Assembly (NCBI GenBank): GCA_016871915.1
Contig: VHBP01000012.1
Span: forward strand, 1 to 49,345
Direction of reading: 5' to 3'
DNA length: 49,345 bases
Source of the DNA: Gemmatimonadota bacterium
Lineage (GTDB): Bacteria > Gemmatimonadota > Gemmatimonadetes > Gemmatimonadales > Gemmatimonadaceae
Shown here piece after piece: positions 12,051-45,017 of this stretch. The notes under the pieces were generated by a model. The model was not told the DNA's origin. It was given only the letters and a program-made list of their open reading frames with translations, and searched no databases. Positions within the stretch are counted from its first letter, which is position 1. Each line of letters opens with the position of its first letter. Both the position numbers and the translations under genes were made by a program.

Positions 12051-12428
12051 CTAGCGGGGACCCGGGGCGAGGTACGCCCCCGGTCGGTCGTCATCGAAGA
12101 GCCCACGACGGGCGAAGGTCGGCTGCACGTCGGCCGGGGTCTCGATCTGCGTCTCGTACGCCATCCGGGTCTCCACCGATCGGGCGCGCATCCAGAGCGA
12201 CCCGGCGACGATGAGGGTGAGCCCAGCCGCGAGGAGTCCCACGCGGTAGGTCCGCTCGGAGATCGCCCACCACTCGCCCTCTTCATGGCCCTGCGCCACG
12301 CGGGCCAGGATGCGTGCGTGAAGCCCATCCCAGTAGGCCGGATCGGCTGGTGGGGCGGTGAGCGCTCGGAGGTGCTCGGTCAGTTCGTCATCCCGGTGCA
12401 GCGCCGGGCCGCGGGTCTCTTCGGTCAT
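12051..12428 (-). CDS. Membrane-spanning anti-sigma factor-like protein
   Basis: A 125-residue protein whose start codon overlaps the end of the ECF sigma gene by 4 nt (ATGA), the usual arrangement for a sigma/anti-sigma pair. The N-terminal 70 residues are cytosolic and contain W-D-G-L-H-A-R-I-L-A-R-V, resembling the helix of anti-sigma domains. A single membrane helix (about residues 75-97, V-G-L-L-A-A-G-L-T-L-I-V-A-G) is followed by a short periplasmic tail. The zinc motif HxxxCxxC of ZAS-type anti-sigma factors is absent. Function is inferred mainly from context. Confidence 0.6.
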   Translation of the reverse strand: MTEETRGPALHRDDELTEHLRALTAPPADPAYWDGLHARILARVAQGHEEGEWWAISERTYRVGLLAAGLTLIVAGSLWMRARSVETRMAYETQIETPADVQPTFARRGLFDDDRPGAYLAPGPR

Positions 12429-13015
12429 ACGTCACTCCTCAGCGCCCCGAGCAACTGGCGCAAATGGGATCGGGCATAGTGCAGGTCGGAGCGAGCCGTC
12501 CCCTCGGGGATCCCGAGCATCTGGCCGATCTCCGCGTGGCGGAACCCCTCCACGTCGTGCAACGTGATCACCGCGCGTTGCCGCGCGGGGAGCTCGGCGA
12601 GCGCCGCCGCCAACCGACGGCGCACCTCCGCCGTCTCCGCGGGATCGCGGTAGGGCGACGCCACCGTCTCCGGCAACTCGTCGGCATCCCGCACCTTCCG
12701 CCGACGGGTGATGTCGAGCGCCGCATTCGCCACGATCCGGTGGAGCCAGGCCCCGAAGGCCTGATCGGGGCGGAAGCGCTCCAGCGCGCGGTAGGCGTGG
12801 AGGAACCCTTCCTGCACCGCGTCCTCCGCATCCTCGTGGTTGAGCACGATCGCCCGCGCCACCGCGTACGCCCGCCGCTGGTGCCGAAGCACCAGGGTGC
12901 CGAAGGCCGCCTCCTCGCCCCGCTGGGCGGCGAGGATGAGCTCCCGCTGGTCCGCTGGCCGGTCAGGCACCATGCGGACGGTGGTCGGGGTCCAGGGGAG
13001 GACCATCGTGGTCAT
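12425..13015 (-). CDS. RNA polymerase ECF-type sigma factor
   Basis: A 196-residue group 4 sigma factor. Region 2 (residues about 30-95) shows D-A-E-D-A-V-Q-E-G-F-L-H-A-Y and the W-L-H-R-I-V-A-N motif. Region 4 (about 135-190) has L-P-A-R-Q-R-A-V-I-T-L-H-D-V-E-G-F and the helix-turn-helix E-I-G-Q-M-L-G-I-P-E-G-T-A-R-S. It heads an operon that continues with the anti-sigma-like, Spy-like, TolC, MacA-like and permease genes, so it probably controls this export system by autoregulation. Upstream lies a TATA-like segment around 13041-13048 (minus strand GTATATGAGG), a possible promoter element; I could not define an ECF-type -35 box. Confidence 0.92.
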   Translation of the reverse strand: MTTMVLPWTPTTVRMVPDRPADQRELILAAQRGEEAAFGTLVLRHQRRAYAVARAIVLNHEDAEDAVQEGFLHAYRALERFRPDQAFGAWLHRIVANAALDITRRRKVRDADELPETVASPYRDPAETAEVRRRLAAALAELPARQRAVITLHDVEGFRHAEIGQMLGIPEGTARSDLHYARSHLRQLLGALRSDV

Positions 13016-13080
13016 GCGCGACGCTCACGTGGCACATCCTCATATACGTCGGAGCGAGGGCTGACGTTGGGGCGTTACAG

Positions 13081-32517: not shown

Positions 32518-35500
32518 CTAGCGGCGCACCGGGTCGTAGTTCAGGATGGGTGCGAGCCACCGCTCCGCCGTCGCGAGCTCCATCCCCTTCCGCGCCGCGT
32601 ACGACTCCACCTGGTCCTTCTCGATCTTCCCGACGCCGAAGTACTTCGCCTCAGGATGCCAGAAGTACCACCCCGAGACCGCCGAGGCCGGCAGCATCGC
32701 AAAGCTCTCGGTGAGATGCACGCCGACATTCTTCTCCGCATCGAGCAGATCGAAGAGGGTGCGCTTCTCGGTGTGATCGGGGCAGGCGGGGTACCCCGGG
32801 GCCGGACGGATCCCCTGATACTGCTCGCGGATCAGCGCCTGGTTGTCGAGCGCCTCGTTCGGGGCATAGCCCCAGAGCTCGCGCCGCACCCGCTCGTGCA
32901 TCCGTTCCGCGAACGCCTCGGCGAGACGATCCGCCAGCGCCTTGAGGAGGATCGACGAGTAGTCGTCATGCGCCGCTTCGAAGGCGGCGACCCGTTCGTC
33001 GAGCCCCACGCCGGTGGTGACGACGAAGGCGCCGAGCCAATCGGTGACGCCGGCGCTCTTGGGGGCGACGAAGTCGGCGAGCGCGAGATTCGGGCGCCCA
33101 TCCTTCTTCACCATCTGCTGACGGATCGAGTACACTGTGACGCCGCGACCGGGGAGGATGATGTCCTCCTTCCCGTCGGAGTGCGCTTCGAAGAACCCGA
33201 CCGCCGCACGCGCGGTGAGCCACTTCTCGCTGACGATCTTGTCGAGCATCCCCTGCGCATCACGCCAGAGATTCCGCGCCGCCTCACCCACGACGGGGTC
33301 GTCGAGGATCGCGGGATACGACCCCGCGAGCTCCCAGGTCTGGAAGAACGGGGTCCAGTCGATGCGCGGCACGAGTTCCTCGAGCGGCACATCGTCGAAG
33401 ACGCGCACCCCCTCGAAGCTCGGGCGGGGCGGGGTGACCCCGGCCCATGAGAGGGCGACCTTGTTCGCGCGCGCCTCCTCGAGCCGCTGGCGCGTCGCGT
33501 CGTTCTGCCGCGCGGCCCGCGCCTCGCGCGCCTGTTGATACTCGGTGCGTACCTCCTCCACGAAGTTCTCGCGGAGCCCATCGCTGAGCAGGCTCCCTGC
33601 CACGCCCACGGCGCGGGAGGCGTCGAGCACATGCACCACCGGCGCCGAGTAGTTCGGCGCGATCTTCACCGCCGTATGCACCTTGGAAGTGGTCGCCCCA
33701 CCGATGAGGAGGGGGACGGTCCACTGCTCGCGTTCGAGCTCGCTCGCAAGGAAGGCCATCTCCTCGAGCGAGGGGGTGATCAGCCCGGAGAGGCCGATGA
33801 TGTCCACGTCGTGGGTGCGCGCGGCCTCGAGGATCTTTGCCGCCGGCACCATCACGCCGAGGTCGATCACCTCGAAGTTGTTACACTGGAGCACAACGCC
33901 GACGATGTTCTTCCCGATGTCGTGCACGTCCCCCTTCACGGTGGCGAGGAGCACTTTCCCCTTCGCCTGACGCTCGCCACCTGCTGCGGCCTGTTCGGCC
34001 TCGATGTAAGGGATGAGGTGCGCGACCGCCCGCTTCATCACACGCGCCGACTTCACCACCTGCGGGAGGAACATCTTCCCCGCGCCGAAGAGGTCGCCGA
34101 CGACGTTCATCCCCTGCATCAGCGGCCCTTCGATCACCTCGATCGGGCGATCGTACAGATGCCGCGCCTCCTCGGTGTCCTCCACCGCGAACTCGGCGAT
34201 CCCATGCACCAGCGCATGCGTCAGCCGCTCGTTGACCGGGGCTTCACGCCACGAGAGATCGACCTTCCGCTGCTGCGCCTGGCCCTTCGCGTCGTCGGCG
34301 ACGGCGAGGAGCCGCTCCGTGGCATCGGGGCGTCGCGCGAGGATCACATCCTCGACGCGCTCACGGAGGTCGGCGGGGATGTCCTCGTAGATCACGAGGG
34401 CGCCCGCATTCACGATCCCCATGTCCATTCCCGCCTTCACGGCGTGGTAGAGGAAGGCGGAGTGGATCGCCTCACGCACCGCGTTGTTGCCGCGGAAGGA
34501 GAAGGAGACGTTGCTCACCCCACCGGAGATCCGCGCATGCGGGCAGCTCGCCTTGATCTGCCGCGTCGCCTCGATGAAGGCGAGCGCGTATCGGTCGTGC
34601 TCCTCGATCCCCGTGGCGACGGCGAAGATGTTCGGATCGAAGATGATATCCTGCGGCGGGAAGCCCACGTGCTCCACGAGGAGCGTATAGGCCCGCTGGC
34701 AGATCGTGACCTTCCGCTCGACGGTGTCGGCCTGCCCCTGCTCGTCGAACGCCATCACGATCACCGCGGCGCCGTACCGACGCACGAGCGTCGCCTGCTG
34801 CAGGAAGGCCGCCTCGCCCTCCTTGAGGGAGATCGAGTTCACGATCGACTTCCCCTGCACGCAGCGGAGCCCCGCCTCGATCACCTGCCACTTGGAGGAG
34901 TCGATCATGATCGGGACCTTCGCGATCGCCGGCTCCGTCGCCACGAGGTTCAGGAAGCGCGACATCGCCGCCTCGGCGTCGAGCATCCCCTCGTCGAAGT
35001 TGATGTCGATGACGACGGCCCCCGCCTCCACCTGCTGGCGCGCCACCTCGAGGGCCTGGTCGTAGTGCCCGCCGAGGATGAGGTCGGCGAACTTCTTGGA
35101 TCCGGTGACGTTGGTGCGCTCGCCGACGTTCACGAAGTTCGAGTCGGGGCCGATCACCAGCGGCTCGAGCCCGGAGAGGCGGAGGACCGGGGGTGGCGTC
35201 GGGATCGCACGCGGCGCGATATCACGGACGGCGTTCGCGATCGCGCGGATATGACCGGGGGTCGTCCCGCAGCACCCACCGACGATGTTCACGAGCCCCG
35301 ACTCCGCGAACTCCTTGAGGATCGCCGCGGTGAAGGCCGGGGTCTCGTCGTAGCCCCCCATCTCGTTGGGGAGGCCGGCGTTCGGGTGCACTGAGACGCG
35401 GCAGTCGGCGATGCGCGAGAGCTCCTGCACGTAGGCGCGGAGCTCCTTGGCGCCCAGGGCGCAGTTGAGCCCGACGCTGAAGGGGCGCGCATGCATCACC

Positions 35501-36219
35501 GAGGTCCAGAAGGCCTCGGTGGTCTGCCCGGAGAGCGTGCGCCCGCTCGCATCGGTGATCGTGCCCGAGATCATGACGGGCACGCGGAGCCCGCGGGCGG
35601 CGAAGACCTCCTCGACCGCGAAGAGTGCCGCCTTGGCGTTGAGTGCGTCGAAGATCGTCTCGACGAGGATGATGTCGGCGCCGCCGTCGAGGAGCCCTTC
35701 GGTCGCTTCGACATACGAGGCGACGAGCTCCGTAAAGGTCACGTTGCGCGCGCCGGGGTCATTCACATCGGGAGAGATGCTCGCGGTGCGATTCGTGGGG
35801 CCGAGGACGCCGGCGACCCAGCGCGGGCGTCCGTCCTGTGCCTCGAACTCGTCGCAGAGGCGGCGCGCGAGGGCGGCCCCCTCGACGTTGAGCTCGCGGA
35901 CCAGCTCCTCCATCCCATAGTCTGCCATCGCGATCCGCGTGGCGTTGAAGGTGCTCGTCTCGATGATGTTCGCGCCCGCCTCGAGGTAGGCGCGATGGAT
36001 CCCGCCGATCACATCGGGGCGGGTGAGGATCAGGAGGTCGTTGTTCCCGCGGAGGTCGCGCGGCCAGTCGGCGAAGCGCGCGCCGCGGTAGTCGGCCTCG
36101 GTGAGGCGATGCTGCTGCACCATCGTCCCCATCGCACCATCGATGATGAGGATCCGCTCGCGCGCCTCGTCGTGGAGGCGGGCGTTGCGCGTCTCGCGCG
36201 TGAAGGGGGGCTGGCTCAT
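32518..36219 (-). CDS. metH: Cobalamin-dependent methionine synthase
   Basis: A 1233-residue enzyme that transfers the methyl group from methyltetrahydrofolate to homocysteine. I place the start at 36219 (M-S-Q-P-P-F), overlapping the metF stop by 4 nt. Domains: homocysteine binding (to about 330; zinc Cys in G-L-N-C-A-L-G and G-G-C-C-G-T), pterin binding (about 350-620), B12 binding with [10 protein letters not shown] (about residue 750, the His that replaces the lower ligand), and the SAM reactivation domain ([12 protein letters not shown] near the end). Length equals that of the classical enzyme. Cotranscribed with metF, downstream of a SAM-II riboswitch. Confidence 0.96.
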
Positions 36220-37127
36220 CGGGGGGTCACCTCCCCGCGCAGCCCCTCGGCGGGGGTACGCGGATGCGGGCGGAGCCCGAGGATGTGGCATAGGGCGTAC
36301 GCGAGGTCGGCGCGGTTGAGCGTGTAGAAGTGGAACTCCGTCACGCCGGCCTGCGCGAGTTGCTGACACTGTTCCGCAGCGACGGTGGCGGCGATCAGCT
36401 TCCGCGTCTCCGGGTCGCCATCGAGACCGTCGAAGACGCGCGCCACGCTCGCCGGGATCGCGGCCCCGGTGGCTTGCGCGAACTTCCGCGTCTGCGTGAA
36501 GTTCGTGACCGGCATGATCCCCGGGACGATCGGGATCGTGATCCCCGCCTTCCGCACGCGGTCGAGATAGCGGAGGTAGGTCCAGTTGTCGAAGAACATC
36601 TGCGTGATCGCGCGCGTGGCGCCAGCGTCGATCTTGCGCTTGAGGTTGTCGAGGTCGGCCTGCGGGGAGAGTGCCTCGGGGTGCGTCTCGGGGTAGGCGG
36701 CGACGGTGATCTCGAAGTCGTGGCGCCGCTTCAGTCCCTCGACGAGATCCGAGGCGAAGGCATAGCCCTCGGGGTGCGGCGTGTAGGTGCCATCGCCATT
36801 GGGGACATCGCCGCGGAGGGCGACGATGTGCCGCACCCCGACCGCCCAATAGTCATCCGCGACCGCATCGACCTCGGCGCGGGTCGCTCCCACGCAGGTC
36901 AGGTGGGCGGCGGGGACGAGGGAGGTCTCCGTCATCAGGCGGCGCACCGTGTGGTGCGTGCGCTCGCGGGTCGAGCCGCCGGCGCCGTAGGTCACCGAGA
37001 CGAAGCGCGGGTTGAGGGGCGCCAGGCGGGTGATCGAGCGCCAGAGCGTCTCCTCCATCTCCGCCGTCTTGGGCGGGAAGAACTCGAAGGAGACGAGGAA
37101 GGGGACGGGTAAGGCGAGAGAGCTCAC
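36216..37127 (-). CDS. metF: Methylenetetrahydrofolate reductase
   Basis: A 303-residue flavoprotein that makes the methyltetrahydrofolate used by MetH. Typical features: E-F-F-P-P-K near residue 15 (with the catalytic Glu), V-T-Y-G-A-G-G-S-T, and A-L-R-G-D-V-P. The start is a GTG at 37127 with GGAG 6 nt upstream. The stop overlaps the metH start (ATGA). Both genes lie behind a SAM-responsive leader, matching control by methionine or SAM supply. Confidence 0.96.
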
Positions 37128-39273: not shown

Positions 39274-39490
39274 CCACTCCGGAAGCATCCGCTGCCGTGG
39301 TGCGCGCTCAGGTCACCGCGCGGCCGAGGACGGTCAGGAGCGGGGCGGGGGAATCCACAGGGGAATTGTGACGGGAGAGGGGGCCGCAGAGGTAGTGTGG
39401 GGTGTGACGGCTGGCACGTCGACGGTCGGAGCGGTGGTGGTCCCATGGCGCGGGACGCGGAGGGCTGGTCATACTCCCGAGACCGCGCCT

Positions 39491-40051
39491 ATGTCGTCCT
39501 CGTCCCCCTCCTCCCCGATCGACCCCTCGCTGCCGTTGCGGGCGAAGGCGGGCGACCGCCAGGCCTTCGCGCAGTTGGTCGAGCTCTGCTATCCGCGGTC
39601 GCTCCGGTTCGCCCTCCACATGGTGGGGAACCGGGAAGATGCGGAGGAGGCGGTGCAGGACACTTTCGTCCGGGTGTATCACCACTTGGGCCAGTTCCGG
39701 GACGATGGGCGGTTCGAGCCCTGGCTCTTCCGGATCCTGGCGAATCGGTGTCGGACGGTGTTGGCGAAACGGCGGCGGCATGCGGAGGTGATCCAGTACG
39801 GCGACGTGCCGGATCATGATGCGCCGACGGCGGTGGATGGGCTGGATTGGATGGAGGAGATCCACAAGGTGTTGGCGACGCTCCCGGTGGAGCAGCGCGA
39901 GGCCTTCCTCCTCCACCACGTGGAGGAGTTGGCGTACGAGGAGATCGCCGCGGTGACGGGGGTCAAACTCAGTGCGCTGCGAATGCGAGTCAAACGGGCA
40001 TGCGATGTGTTGCGCGTGCGCCTTGCCGAGGTGAGACGGGATGATCGATGA
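39491..40051 (+). CDS. RNA polymerase ECF-type sigma factor (second)
   Basis: A 186-residue sigma factor with region 2 (about 18-85; R-E-D-A-E-E-A-V-Q-D-T-F-V-R-V-Y and W-L-F-R-I-L-A-N-R-C) and region 4 (about 120-175; L-P-V-E-Q-R-E-A-F-L-L and E-E-I-A-A-V-T-G-V-K-L-S-A-L-R). The ATG at 39491 is the first that starts the domain properly, but no strong ribosome-binding site precedes it. The 217-nt gap upstream (39274-39490) contains no gene that I can support; it presumably holds the promoter. The next gene overlaps by 11 nt and seems to be its membrane regulator. Confidence 0.92.
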   Translation: MSSSSPSSPIDPSLPLRAKAGDRQAFAQLVELCYPRSLRFALHMVGNREDAEEAVQDTFVRVYHHLGQFRDDGRFEPWLFRILANRCRTVLAKRRRHAEVIQYGDVPDHDAPTAVDGLDWMEEIHKVLATLPVEQREAFLLHHVEELAYEEIAAVTGVKLSALRMRVKRACDVLRVRLAEVRRDDR

Positions 40052-40631
40052 ACGAGATGCGGTGATCGAGACGGTGCGCGGGCGATTGCGCGCCTCGGTC
40101 GCAGACCAGGCGGACCCACGGGCGGTGGCGCGGATCCTCTCCGCGGCCTTCGCCGCGCCGGCGCCATCGCGCTGGCGGCGGTGGCTCGACGCGTGGCACC
40201 TTCCCGTGATGTCGCGCGTGGGAGCGGCCGTGGTCGCGGTGATCGCGCTCGCGGCGGGATTCGTCGCGCGCGGGGTGTTGCCGAACCGCGCGCCCGTCGA
40301 CCCGATGGCGGTGACGGGGGAGTTCCCGATCCCGGTGACGCCGGCGTCGGATCCGCGCGCCGGTGCGGTCGCGACGCAGTTCGTCTTCGAGGCACCAGCC
40401 GCGCAGGCGGTCGCGCTCGTCGGTGACTTCAACCGGTGGGTGCCGACCGCGGCCCCCCTCGTGCGGCTCCCATCCGGGGTCTGGACGGTCACGGTGCCGC
40501 TGATGCCGGGGCGTCATGTCTACGCCTTCCTCGTCGATGGCGCACGCCTCGAGGCCGATCCGCGGGCCGCTACGGTCGTCGACGCCGACTACGGCCGACC
40601 GAGCTCCGTCGTGATGGTGCCGGGCCGATGA
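40041..40631 (+). CDS. Membrane anti-sigma-like protein with periplasmic CBM48/glycogen-binding-like domain
   Basis: A 196-residue protein. The N-terminal 55 residues are cytosolic and helical, in the place expected for an anti-sigma domain. One membrane helix (about 58-77) follows, then an E-set domain (about 112-180): V-A-L-V-G-D-F-N-R-W, G-V-W-T-V-T-V-P-L and Y-A-F-L-V-D-G, ending in a D-P motif. This is the AMPK/isoamylase-N pattern that binds glucans in other proteins. It overlaps the sigma gene by 11 nt. A role as a sugar-sensing regulator of the sigma factor is inferred. Confidence 0.72.
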   Translation: MIDERDAVIETVRGRLRASVADQADPRAVARILSAAFAAPAPSRWRRWLDAWHLPVMSRVGAAVVAVIALAAGFVARGVLPNRAPVDPMAVTGEFPIPVTPASDPRAGAVATQFVFEAPAAQAVALVGDFNRWVPTAAPLVRLPSGVWTVTVPLMPGRHVYAFLVDGARLEADPRAATVVDADYGRPSSVVMVPGR

Positions 40632-41308
40632 TGCCGACCCTTTCATCTCACATGCGCGCGGCGGGCGTCGCGCTCGTCGGACTGATGTGCGGTGCGCCGC
40701 TCGTCGTCACCGCGCCCCACGCGCAGGCGCCGTCACAGGCGATCGCCCTTGCGATCCCTGACGCCAAGGCCCGACAAGCGGTCGAGCGTGAGATCGCGCG
40801 CGCCGTGAGTCGCGGACTTCCTTCGGCGCCTCTCGTCGCGAAGGCCATGGAAGGGATTACCAAGCAGGCGGCCCCCGACCGCATCCGCTCCGCCGTCGCC
40901 GCGCAGGCGCAGCGACTGGAGCAGGCGCGTGGGCTCCTCGGTCCGACCCCCTCCGAGGCGGAGCTCGTCTCAGGCGCCGAGGCGCTCGCGGCCGGGATCC
41001 CGACGGCGATGCTCAAGCAGGTGCGTGCGGCGTGGCCCGCGCAGTCGGTGGTGATGCCGCTCGATGTGCTCACGGAGCTCGTGGCGCGCGGCGTGCCGCC
41101 CAAGCAGGCGCTCGAGCGCGTCGTCACGCTCATGCGTCGTGGCGCGACCCCGGTGCAGATCGCGGGGCTCGGCGCGGCGGTGCAGGCCGATGTCGCGGCG
41201 GGACTCGCCCCCGATGCCGCGCTCGAGGTGCGCGCGCGCGGCGTGATGTCGCTCCTCCCGTCGCCCGCCGCGGCGGCGGCCCTCGCCCCGAGCGGTCGCC
41301 GCCCGTAA
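40628..41308 (+). CDS. Secreted Ala-rich helical protein of unknown function
   Basis: A 226-residue product with a signal peptide (A-A-G-V-A-L-V-G-L-M-C-G... H-A-Q-A). The mature part is helical with repeated patterns such as R-G-L-P-S-A-P-L, A-G-I-P-T-A-M-L, R-G-V-P-P-K-Q-A-L, R-G-A-T-P-V-Q-I and A-G-L-A-P-D-A-A-L, spaced by about 30 to 40 residues. I do not recognise a family. It overlaps the CBM48 membrane gene by 4 nt and so belongs to the sigma-factor operon. A periplasmic role is likely. Confidence 0.6.
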   Translation: MMPTLSSHMRAAGVALVGLMCGAPLVVTAPHAQAPSQAIALAIPDAKARQAVEREIARAVSRGLPSAPLVAKAMEGITKQAAPDRIRSAVAAQAQRLEQARGLLGPTPSEAELVSGAEALAAGIPTAMLKQVRAAWPAQSVVMPLDVLTELVARGVPPKQALERVVTLMRRGATPVQIAGLGAAVQADVAAGLAPDAALEVRARGVMSLLPSPAAAAALAPSGRRP

Positions 41309-41402
41309 CGCGTTCGCGGACCGTGGCGAGTGCGCCACGGACATTACGATGCGGCGGTGAGGGAGGGAGGCGTATCCGCGCTCGCCGGGGTACCTTCGAA
41401 TC

Positions 41403-42596
41403 ATGCCGCGCCGTGGTCCCCCCCTCGCGCTCGCCGCGCTCGTCCTCTTCGGGCGAGTTGTGGGCGCGCAGAGTGATCCGGTGCTCCGTCTCGACGCTGG
41501 ACTCGCGACCATCCAGCAGCCCGCGATCGGCACGGTGCGCGGACGCGAGACCTCCGATGCCGCGCTCCTCGCCGCCTTCTGGCGACGCCCCCTCGAGCGA
41601 TCGACCCTCCTCGCGAGCGGGAACCTCACCTACGCGCGCGATTCGCTCGCCGCGATCCAAGGGGTCGCCGTCCTCTCGACCCCCTGGCGTCGTGAGCCGA
41701 ATCTGCGCACCGATGTCGGCGTCGCGGGGGCGAGCTTCTCGTTGCGGAGCGCCGGGACCGGTGGGAATACCAATGCCTTCGTGCGACAACACGTCGTGCG
41801 CACCGATGATGGCGGGTGGGTCGGTGGGGCGATGGGTCGCACGCGCCGCGATGGCGTGCCCAGCGCGACGACCTCCACCGACCTCGGGCTCTGGCGGCGC
41901 TGGCGATTCCTCTATGGCAGCGCCTCGGTCGCCTATCAGCACTCCACCGACTGGCTCCTCCTCTACACCGCAGGCGACCTCGATGCGCGAGCGGAGGCCG
42001 ACTACGATCTCGTCGATCTGCAGTTCGTGCTGCAGGCGCGGGGTGGACCGCACGATCTGACCCTCTCGTGGACGCGACGTCGGGTCTTTGCCGACGGCCC
42101 CATCTCGCTTCCGGCGCTCCAAGGGAGCGGCACCTTCCAGCTGACCGATCGCGTGGCCCTCCTCGCGACCGTGGGGCGCCAACTCGCTGACCCGATGCGC
42201 GGACTCCCGCAGGCCGATCTCGCGATGGCCGCGGTGCGCGTAAGTCTCGGTCCCCAGCCCCTCCCGGTCATGCCGCGTGCCGTGATCGCCGAGGCGCTCG
42301 TGCACACGGAGGTCGGGACCGACTCGAGTGGTGCGACGATGACGCCGCGCGCGATCCTCGAGATCCGCGTCGAGGCGAGCGATACCGCCGCGGTCACCGT
42401 CGCCGGCTCCTTCTCGCAGTGGGAACCGATCCCCCTTCGATGGGAGGAGGGGGTCTGGATCGCACGCGCCCCGATCGAGCGCGGCACACATCGGCTCGGG
42501 GTCCGCGTAGGGAACGGGCCCTGGCGCGCCCCGCGGAATCTGGCCCGCGTCCGCGACGGCTTCGGCGGCGAGTCGGGACTCTTGGTGGTACCTTAG
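41403..42596 (+). CDS. Beta-rich envelope protein with C-terminal CBM48/glycogen-binding-like domain
   Basis: A 397-residue protein with signal peptide (V-V-G-A-Q). Residues about 25-300 show alternating polar/hydrophobic strands and aromatic ends (for example W-R-F-L-Y-G-S-A-S-V-A-Y-Q), as in an outer membrane beta barrel. Residues about 320-392 form an E-set domain like that of the membrane regulator upstream: A-V-T-V-A-G-S-F-S-Q-W, G-V-W-I-A-R-A-P-I and H-R-L-G-V-R-V-G-N-G. It lies 94 nt after the secreted helical protein. Possibly the target of the sigma factor cluster; function unknown. Confidence 0.65.
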   Translation: MPRRGPPLALAALVLFGRVVGAQSDPVLRLDAGLATIQQPAIGTVRGRETSDAALLAAFWRRPLERSTLLASGNLTYARDSLAAIQGVAVLSTPWRREPNLRTDVGVAGASFSLRSAGTGGNTNAFVRQHVVRTDDGGWVGGAMGRTRRDGVPSATTSTDLGLWRRWRFLYGSASVAYQHSTDWLLLYTAGDLDARAEADYDLVDLQFVLQARGGPHDLTLSWTRRRVFADGPISLPALQGSGTFQLTDRVALLATVGRQLADPMRGLPQADLAMAAVRVSLGPQPLPVMPRAVIAEALVHTEVGTDSSGATMTPRAILEIRVEASDTAAVTVAGSFSQWEPIPLRWEEGVWIARAPIERGTHRLGVRVGNGPWRAPRNLARVRDGFGGESGLLVVP

Positions 42597-42601
42597 CGCC
42601 C

Positions 42602-43900
42602 ATGACCACATCCTCGCGTCGTGACTTCCTCACCGGGCTCGCCGGAGCCGGTCTCGCCCTCCCCATGCTCTCCGAGCGCGCCATGGCACAGCTCGTGCGC
42701 GCGAATCTCGTCGCGGGGGACCGATCCCCCTCGGCGCTCGCCGACGACGAGAGCTACTGGTCGCAGATCCAGCGCGCCTTCGACGCCGACCGCGTGATGA
42801 TCAACTTGAACAACGGCGGGATCTCACCGACGCCATCGCATGTGCTCGAGCAGTTGATCCGCGACCTGCGCTTCGTCAACGAGCTCCCCGTCGAGCACAA
42901 CTGGCGGATCCTCGAGCCGCGGATGGAGAGCACGCGTCGCGAACTCGCGCGCGAGTTCGGATGTGACCCCGAGGAGATGGCGATCAACCGCAACGCCTCC
43001 GAAGGGATGGAGACGATGATCCTGGGGCTCGACCTCGCGAAGGGCGACGAGGTCATCGTCACCAATCAGAACTACGGTCGCATGCTCCAGGCCTGGGAGC
43101 AGCGCGAGCGCCGCGATGGCATCGTGCTCAAGCAGGTTGCGTTCCCCGTCCCACTCACCGATCCGCAGTTCCTCGTGAAGGCGATCGCAGCGCAGATCAC
43201 CCCACGCACCAAGGCGATCGAGCTCCCGCATATCACGAATCTCACCGGGCAGATCCTCCCGATCCGCGACATCGTTCGCCTCGCGCGGCCCAAGGGGATC
43301 CCGGTCTTCGTCGACGGGGCGCACGCCTTCGGGCACTTCCCCTTCACGCGCGACGCGCTCGAGTGTGACTACTACGCGACCTCGCTCCACAAGTGGATCC
43401 ATGCGCCGATCGGTGCGGGATTCCTCTCGGTGCGGAAGTCGGAGATCCCGAAGCTCTGGCCCCTCATGGCCGCGCCCAAGACGAAGGACGCCGACATCCG
43501 GAAGTTCGAGGAGTTCGGCACCCACCCGCAGGCGAACTTCAATGCGGTCTCGATCGCGCTCACCTTCCATCGGGGGATCGGGATCGATCGCAAGGTCGCG
43601 CGGCTCCGCTACCTCCGCGATCGCTGGGCGAAGGCGTTGCTCGCCGAGAGCCCGCGCGTGAAGGTCCTCACCGAACTCGGCCCCGACAAGGCGGGTGCCA
43701 TCTGCATGTTCGATGTCGAGGGGATCGATCCTGGTGCGCTCGGCGGCTGGCTCATGAGCAAGCATCGGATCGTCACCACGCCGATCGTCCACCCCGAGTT
43801 CAAGGGGATCCGCATCACCCCGAGCATCTATACCACGCCGGATGAGCTGGATACCTTCGTCGAGGCGGTGAAGGTCGCCATCAAACGAGGGATCACGTGA
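42602..43900 (+). CDS. Tat-exported class V aminotransferase-fold protein
   Basis: A 432-residue PLP-dependent enzyme of the isopenicillin N epimerase/cysteine desulfurase group. It starts with a twin-arginine signal (S-R-R-D-F-L-T-G-L-A-G-A-G). The PLP Lys is in T-S-L-H-K-W-I-H-A-P, preceded by the cofactor Asp in F-V-D-G-A-H. The conserved N-R-N-A-S-E-G-M motif binds the cofactor phosphate. Export of a folded PLP enzyme fits the Tat route. The substrate is unknown. The start lies 5 nt after the envelope gene, so it may share its transcript; the EVE gene overlaps its end. Confidence 0.88.
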   Translation: MTTSSRRDFLTGLAGAGLALPMLSERAMAQLVRANLVAGDRSPSALADDESYWSQIQRAFDADRVMINLNNGGISPTPSHVLEQLIRDLRFVNELPVEHNWRILEPRMESTRRELAREFGCDPEEMAINRNASEGMETMILGLDLAKGDEVIVTNQNYGRMLQAWEQRERRDGIVLKQVAFPVPLTDPQFLVKAIAAQITPRTKAIELPHITNLTGQILPIRDIVRLARPKGIPVFVDGAHAFGHFPFTRDALECDYYATSLHKWIHAPIGAGFLSVRKSEIPKLWPLMAAPKTKDADIRKFEEFGTHPQANFNAVSIALTFHRGIGIDRKVARLRYLRDRWAKALLAESPRVKVLTELGPDKAGAICMFDVEGIDPGALGGWLMSKHRIVTTPIVHPEFKGIRITPSIYTTPDELDTFVEAVKVAIKRGIT

Positions 43901-44370
43901 GATATTGGCTGGTCAAGTCGGAGCCCGACGTCTTCTCCTTCGCTGACCTGCAGGCGGCGCCGAAGAAGACCACGCATTGGGACGGCGTTCGCAATTATCA
44001 GGCGCGCAACACCCTGCGCGACGAGATGAAGCGGGGGGATCGTTGCTTCTACTATCACTCGAACGCCGAGCCCTCAGGGATCGCAGGGATCTGTGAGGTG
44101 GTGCGTGAGGGGTATCCCGATCATACGGCCTTCGACAAGAAGGACCCGCATTACGATCCCAAGTCGAAGCCCGACGCGCCGACCTGGTACATGGTCGATG
44201 TGAAGGCGGTGAAGGCGTTCCCGCGGCTGATCGCCCTCGGCGAACTGCGCGATGTCGCAGCGCTCAAGGGGATGGTGCTCTTGCAGAAGGGGAGCCGGCT
44301 CAGCGTGCAGCCGGTGACCAAGAAGGAGTGGGAGACGATCTGCGCGATGGCGGGCGTCTCCGCCACCTGA
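43897..44370 (+). CDS. EVE domain-containing protein
   Basis: A 157-residue single-domain protein of the PUA-like EVE family. Characteristic parts: Y-W-L-V-K-S-E-P-D at the start, the W-D-G-V-R-N-Y-Q-A-R-N block, G-D-R-C-F-Y-Y-H-S-N and the later D-A-P-T-W-Y-M-V-D-V. EVE domains bind modified DNA bases or RNA. The GTG start overlaps the preceding stop codon (GTGA). The family is widespread and often found beside unrelated genes, so the neighbour gives little functional information. Confidence 0.93.
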   Translation: MRYWLVKSEPDVFSFADLQAAPKKTTHWDGVRNYQARNTLRDEMKRGDRCFYYHSNAEPSGIAGICEVVREGYPDHTAFDKKDPHYDPKSKPDAPTWYMVDVKAVKAFPRLIALGELRDVAALKGMVLLQKGSRLSVQPVTKKEWETICAMAGVSAT

Positions 44371-44386: not shown

Positions 44387-44773
44387 CTAGCGGATCACGC
44401 GGATCGGCACGCCGACCTCGAGCCCCTGCCAGGCGCGGTCGGCGGTCCACGCGGTCCCACCCTGATCCTGTCCCGTCGCCAGACAGACGGCGTCGCCGAG
44501 GGAGAGCCCGCGATCACGTGCGGCGGCATGGATCGTGGTGGCGCGCTCGATCATCTCCCCCTCGAACGGCACCACCTCTACCGCAAGTTCGTCGAGGATC
44601 GCCCGCGCCTGGGCCGGCGCGAGTCCTCGGCGCACGAGCACGTTGGCGACCTCGAGGAGGTTCACCGCCGACATCACGGGGAGTGCTCCGGCCGGCAGTG
44701 CCGCGGCCCCGACCTCGCCCGAGAGCATCGCGAGCAGGGCCGAGGCATCGAAGATGTGCGGCCCCTCACTCAC
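44387..44773 (-). CDS. vapC: VapC-type PIN-domain ribonuclease toxin
   Basis: A 128-residue PIN domain. The four acidic residues of the active site are seen: Asp9 (F-D-A-S-A-L-L), Glu41 (N-L-L-E-V-A-N), Asp94 (L-G-D-A-V-C-L-A) and Asp112 (A-W-T-A-D-R-A-W). The start is the GTG at 44773, which overlaps the antitoxin gene by 8 nt (its stop is at 44766-44768). The toxin would cleave RNA when the antitoxin is lost. Confidence 0.9.
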   Translation of the reverse strand: MSEGPHIFDASALLAMLSGEVGAAALPAGALPVMSAVNLLEVANVLVRRGLAPAQARAILDELAVEVVPFEGEMIERATTIHAAARDRGLSLGDAVCLATGQDQGGTAWTADRAWQGLEVGVPIRVIR

Positions 44774-45017
44774 GCCAGAGGCCCTGCTTCCGTTGTGCGA
44801 GCAGCTCGTCCGCGAGCCCGGCGACCCCTGCGGGACCGAGTGCTTCGCGCACCCGAGCATGGGCCGTGGCGGCGCTGGCGCCGAAGGTGCGAAGGACGAT
44901 TGCATCGTCCCGCACCTCGACGGCGAGTTCGGCGCCGGGGGCGAGTCCGAGCGCGCGGCGGGCGCTCGCGGGGAGGACGACACGTCCATTGGCGTCGAGG
45001 CGGGTCTTCTCTGTCAT
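44766..45017 (-). CDS. vapB: AbrB/SpoVT-type antitoxin
   Basis: An 83-residue antitoxin with an AbrB DNA-binding domain at the N terminus (L-D-A-N-G-R-V-V-L-P-A-S-A-R-R-A-L-G-L), and a C-terminal tail (G-L-A-D-E-L-L-A-Q-R-K-Q) that probably covers the toxin. The start ATG at 45017 lies within an inverted repeat that is the likely operator. Translationally coupled to the PIN toxin. Confidence 0.9.
   Translation of the reverse strand: MTEKTRLDANGRVVLPASARRALGLAPGAELAVEVRDDAIVLRTFGASAATAHARVREALGPAGVAGLADELLAQRKQGLWRE

Follow-up and report, generated by a model that had tools for sequence, protein, structure and literature searches.

The closest described counterparts of the locus analysed here are the surface-signalling systems FecI/FecR/FecA and PupI/PupR/PupB, in which an ECF sigma factor, a one-pass membrane regulator and an outer-envelope protein are encoded together, one fold is shared by the periplasmic domains of the regulator and the envelope protein, and several paralogous sets occur per genome. 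The transducer FecA and the anti-sigma factor FecR each contain a domain of the STN fold. Similarly, the STN domain at the end of PupR is a homologue of the signalling domain of the transducer PupB (PMC7186176). Two further systems resemble the locus in part: the SigI/RsgI pairs of Clostridium thermocellum, also multiple and paralogous, whose anti-sigma factors carry a carbohydrate-binding-type module outside the membrane, and CnrH/CnrY/CnrX, in which an ECF sigma factor is joined by a membrane anti-sigma factor that is very short and apparently two-helical and by a helical periplasmic partner.

Within the window (the whole stretch of DNA analysed, 49,345 nucleotides from a member of the Gemmatimonadaceae) we examined a four-gene cassette that appears to share these features and departs from each of the systems. 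Compared with Fec and Pup, the paired domain is a C-terminal CBM48/E-set instead of an STN domain that is N-terminal on the envelope protein, no TonB-dependent receptor was found, and an extra secreted helical-repeat protein is encoded. Unlike the cassette sigma factor, SigI is not an ECF factor, and the modules of its Gram-positive partners are CBM3, CBM42, PA14 or GH10 rather than CBM48; SigI/RsgI are moreover linked to glycan-degrading genes and have no outer-membrane partner. CnrX senses metal, CnrY lacks a periplasmic E-set, the Cnr set includes no outer-membrane E-set protein, and no sequence similarity was detected between the Cnr proteins and the cassette. The cassette domains themselves have the fold and the invariant first Trp of the AMPK beta glycogen-binding module and the CBM48 of GlgB, the envelope copy keeping the second Trp as well, but they are secreted or periplasmic instead of cytosolic, have no attached kinase or glucan enzyme and do not conserve the K126 position. 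By its design the cassette falls within ECF surface signalling, of which the CBM48/E-set version seems undescribed: a search of the open-access literature, with most subscription journals outside it, returned no description of the cassette or of an ECF anti-sigma factor joined with CBM48, and the single match for ECF, anti-sigma and CBM48 combined was set aside as, by its title and abstract, a gut metagenome study.

Composition of the cassette

The first-pass annotation had described a sigma factor, a membrane regulator with an E-set domain, a secreted helical protein and a beta-rich E-set protein lying together at 39491-42596, and all four genes were recovered there on the forward strand. The features of the locus are as follows.

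39366-39396, forward strand: putative autoregulated ECF promoter from a phylogenetic footprint, with a -35-like TTGTGAC (39366-39372) and a -10-like GGTAGT (39391-39396)
39491-40051, forward strand: sigma gene, ECF-type sigma-70 factor of 186 aa (Sigma70_r2 1.7e-16, Sigma70_r4_2 2.4e-14)
40041-40631, forward strand: regulator gene, putative anti-sigma factor of 196 aa (CBM_48 3.3e-10, AMPK1_CBM 1e-7)
40212-40280, forward strand: regulator transmembrane helix, about residues 58-80, read from the translation
40368-40622, forward strand: predicted periplasmic CBM48/E-set of the regulator, residues 110-194, from a profile match
40628-41308, forward strand: helical protein gene, secreted all-helical repeat protein of 226 aa with a signal peptide (AlphaFold)
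41403-42596, forward strand: envelope gene, secreted protein of 397 aa with a signal peptide, a beta-rich region at residues 25-290 (putative outer-membrane barrel) and a C-terminal CBM48/E-set at residues 313-397
42339-42593, forward strand: envelope protein C-terminal CBM48/E-set with invariant W340 and W374 (AlphaFold pLDDT about 70-85, nearest PDB entries AMPK-beta CBMs)
42602-43900, forward strand: Tat-exported class-V aminotransferase, PvdN-like (Aminotran_5 4.8e-32, weak TAT signal match)

The sigma factor consists of regions 2 and 4 only (Sigma70_r2 at residues 29-96 and Sigma70_r4_2 at residues 122-171 of 186), which is the ECF arrangement of sigma2 and sigma4 without sigma3. Elsewhere in the window (12428-13024, reverse strand), another ECF sigma factor, in which regions 2 and 4 are clear, is encoded without the cassette. 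The first 11 bp of the regulator gene lie within the sigma gene, an overlap kept in orthologues, and the helical gene shares an ATGA overlap with the regulator stop codon. A gap of 94 bp separates the helical and envelope genes of the window, so that a separate promoter for the envelope gene is conceivable. The regulator is built of a short Cys-free cytoplasmic part (about residues 1-57), one transmembrane helix, a periplasmic linker and the C-terminal CBM48/E-set; by the positive-inside rule, the basic residues preceding the transmembrane helix would place the C-terminus in the periplasm.

After its signal peptide, the helical protein is modelled as about nine helices in a solenoid-like arrangement (AlphaFold mean pLDDT 75, about 82-93 over residues 91-210). 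Profile and structure searches gave no Pfam or PDB family match for it, and the matches of its model, designed helical repeats and mTERF-type repeats with Z of at most 10.5, are uninformative. The signal peptide of the envelope protein was recognised by eye, and its beta-rich region carries a period-2 amphipathic hydrophobicity signal (z 3.2). The AlphaFold model of this protein, built from a three-row alignment, is confident at residues 294-397 only, with pLDDT below 50 in the barrel region. Porin_4 produced one weak match among 19 envelope proteins, Pfam detected neither a TonB plug nor a TonB-dependent receptor domain in the window protein or the 19 family members, and no NCBIfam or Pfam family spans the barrel region or the helical protein. 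Judged by its sequence, the envelope protein is a candidate outer-membrane barrel.

Conservation across Gemmatimonadota

Regulator relatives were detected in 197 of 298 sampled genomes of the phylum by a search that also catches other CBM48 domains. Among 39 homologous loci picked from these hits by regulator similarity, the sigma, regulator and helical genes occur together in every one. The envelope gene accompanies them in 38, the remaining locus sitting at the end of a contig, and in one case (L071) it lies upstream. For an independent, even sample of 61 genomes, the regulator, helical and envelope proteins were searched for with separate profiles and their positions compared, after manual removal of CBM48 matches to envelope proteins, fragments and proteins of branching-enzyme size. 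This sample held 62 regulators in 41 genomes, with the helical gene beside 58 of them and both partners within 4 kb of 47, at one to three cassette copies per genome. In some genera and in the outgroup class, the cassette was missing or weakly detected. Since the same four genes recur together phylum-wide, their clustering is far beyond chance, and the gene order first noticed in a single stretch of DNA is conserved across Gemmatimonadota.

The reading frames mostly overlap or abut, commonly by -4 to -17 bp between sigma and regulator genes and -4 bp between regulator and helical genes, with mostly 1-17 bp between helical and envelope genes. Distances of the cassette proteins co-vary over 36 loci (r 0.66-0.91), as shared descent alone could also bring about. 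A second helical-repeat gene follows the envelope gene at L060:6421-7218, and several other genomes likewise show a helical match at this place.

A single-protein scan of the whole-genome collection returned two loci, both from Gemmatimonadetes. A tblastn search of 72,556 plasmid records with the regulator yielded 21 matches; coverage of the query stayed below 80% in every case, and most alignments took in the E-set alone. Several of these were annotated as GlgB or alpha-amylase and were rejected as cassette relatives, as were two unannotated matches that proved to be GlgB beside a 4-alpha-glucanotransferase-like gene. The cassette is found across Gemmatimonadota and may be limited to it, the comparison outside the phylum having been made with plasmids.

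AMPK-type CBM48 domains and possible glucan sensing

Both cassette domains have the AMPK-type CBM48 fold. Residues 111-182 of the regulator match CBM_48 (3.3e-10) and AMPK1_CBM (1e-7) above the curated cut-offs, while residues 329-389 of the envelope protein match AMPK1_CBM at 9e-4, short of the cut-off for the window protein alone. Across the family, all 19 regulators compared match CBM_48, and AMPK1_CBM is recognised in 18 of the 19 envelope proteins (best 5e-8). Among solved structures, the envelope E-set model comes nearest to the glycogen-binding modules of AMPK-beta (Z 8.9, with 80-83 residues aligned at rmsd 2.4-3.0). The two E-sets are also related to each other (hhalign 1.3e-16).

The first-pass annotation had proposed that two such domains face the periplasm in a signalling system that senses a glucan or other polymer. 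The two periplasm-facing domains and their role in signalling are supported by the sequence; a glucan is one possible signal, and the sugar-contacting aromatic residues are kept in one domain and partly lost in the other. AMPK contacts glucan through W100, K126, W133 and N150 (PMC4032982). The first Trp position holds Trp in all 41 regulators and all 41 envelope proteins compared, and in the envelope proteins W340 and W374 are both invariant (41/41). In the regulators, the second position is Trp in 22 of 41 and Leu in most others, including the window's; because this Trp is lost in the window's genus, the regulator glucan site there is, as read from the sequences, degraded. The K126 position is never Lys, being A, S, T or V in regulators and mostly A, N or G in envelope proteins, and the AMPK Asn position is N in 14 of 41 regulators. 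Starch is bound by a plant domain in which, out of the four AMPK contacts, the two Trp alone are kept (PMC4032982), so by analogy glycan binding by the envelope domain is possible.

One or both E-sets might accordingly serve as a sensor of glucan or another glycan, binding external or envelope polysaccharide as is the case for the CBM-bearing RsgI of Clostridium thermocellum (PMC12203970). This precedent, the starch-binding plant domain and the Trp pair of every envelope E-set speak for such a sensor; the residue at the K126 position and the regulators of the genus speak against it, and so does the genomic setting. The absence of a nearby glucan enzyme, which had been pointed out before, extends to the whole genome of the window (98.75% complete), where searches found neither GH13 nor a GT5 glycogen synthase, and CBM48 in the cassette alone. 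Seven genomes of the genus, the window's included, carry the cassette without any GH13, other members of the genus having GH13, and no glycan gene recurs as a neighbour at the cassette loci examined. We consider a glycan sensor unlikely. A role in protein-protein coupling accounts for the cassettes without GH13 at least as well as glucan sensing, and annotations such as 'glycogen-binding' or 'isoamylase early set' in Gemmatimonadota genomes can mislead. The invariant glucan-type Trp pair of the envelope E-set, which a pure protein-protein role would not need, is a point against the coupling reading.

Promoter-like element, proposed signalling route and neighbouring genes

A footprint over nine loci of the genus gave the consensus GAAATGTGAC-N16-GGGTAC, situated 100-odd bases before the sigma gene. 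The pattern AAATGTGAC-N15..17-GGGTA occurs nine times in 17 genus genomes, once per genome and always just upstream of the cassette sigma gene, compared with one match for the reversed-pattern control. With two mismatches allowed, 15 matches were obtained, among which all nine with zero or one mismatch lie at the cassette and the other six have two mismatches; the flanks of two of these six (L085 and L092) were read and showed no such sigma gene downstream. As all perfect and near-perfect matches in the genus sit before the cassette sigma gene, the pattern suggests that the sigma factor is autoregulated through an ECF-type promoter-like site. The copy in the window has diverged and was missed by both the strict pattern and the two-mismatch search. 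A second TGTGACGG (39403-39410 of the window), lying some 35 bp downstream from the -35-like TGTGAC, is conserved through most of the genus and may be a regulatory direct repeat.

The cytoplasmic part of the regulators is usually about 52-63 residues long and has a two-helical look by eye. A zinc-binding (ZAS, class I) anti-sigma factor was ruled out, as 40 of 41 N-termini contain no Cys and Pfam gave no zf-HC2 match in the regulator. The N-terminal segment matched no anti-sigma family in Pfam and had no profile match to CnrY. For CnrY, a two-helix anti-sigma segment is enough (PMC7406223), and in size the regulator N-terminus resembles this class II protein, unlike the zinc-binding class I. 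A FecR or TonB-receptor assignment was also rejected, no FecR, STN, plug or TonB-dependent receptor match being present in the regulator or envelope protein by Pfam.

With a probability of roughly 55%, we read the cassette as an autoregulated ECF sigma/anti-sigma envelope-signalling system built like FecI/FecR/FecA, with paired E-sets replacing the paired STN domains. The E-sets are proposed as a coupling pair across the periplasm because those of the regulator and the envelope protein are related, as are the STN domains of PupR and PupB. For the cassette proteins we infer a ligand, an anti-sigma activity and an outer-membrane location. The short cytoplasmic segment of the regulator would keep the sigma factor inactive in the manner of CnrY, the envelope protein would form an outer-membrane barrel from which its E-set hangs into the periplasm as a transducer towards the regulator E-set, and the helical protein would act as a periplasmic adaptor or inhibitor. 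A change at the outer membrane would alter the contact between the E-sets, upon which the regulator would release the sigma factor or be cleaved, and the freed sigma factor would transcribe mainly its own operon and so supply more sensor proteins.

The single anti-sigma-like transmembrane protein, the operon promoter footprint and the co-encoded secreted proteins would also suit an envelope-stress response of the RpoE/RseA kind, with the barrel as a regulated client or output instead of the sensor and the E-sets structural. RpoE-type regulons are wide, in contrast to the strict promoter pattern found at the cassette only, and matched E-sets on regulator and envelope protein would be left unexplained, and we regard this response as unlikely. 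That the regulator is no anti-sigma factor and the operon simply has an ECF sigma factor expressed along with an envelope-structure complex would agree with an N-terminus lacking a recognised anti-sigma domain, and is very improbable in view of the overlapping sigma and regulator frames, the topology and the pairing in 39 of 39 loci.

Extending the coupling reading, we suggest tentatively, at somewhat less than even odds, a Gemmatimonadota-wide surface signalling in which glycogen-type E-sets on a barrel and on a minimal anti-sigma factor were recruited as a coupling pair, in the place of STN in FecA/FecR. If true, a poorly studied phylum would have a testable route from the outer membrane to transcription, in several copies per genome, and a known sugar-binding fold would be used for trans-envelope signalling in organisms possibly without glycogen metabolism. 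The FecA/FecR design of the same fold on both partners may then have arisen more than once.

The aminotransferase gene starts just after the envelope gene; it adjoins orthologous cassettes in other genera and is absent from paralogous cassettes. It is a neighbour of the orthologous locus and not part of the core cassette, and it may be an output gene of the window's copy. On the reverse strand after the cassette, an EVE-domain protein and a PIN-domain protein, the latter probably a toxin of a toxin-antitoxin pair, are encoded at 43897-44370 and 44390-44878. Upstream of the cassette (32518-37127, reverse strand), MetF (MTHFR) overlaps an ORF identified by eye as the cobalamin-dependent methionine synthase MetH, and a homologous ORF is found near the cassette in other loci of the genus.
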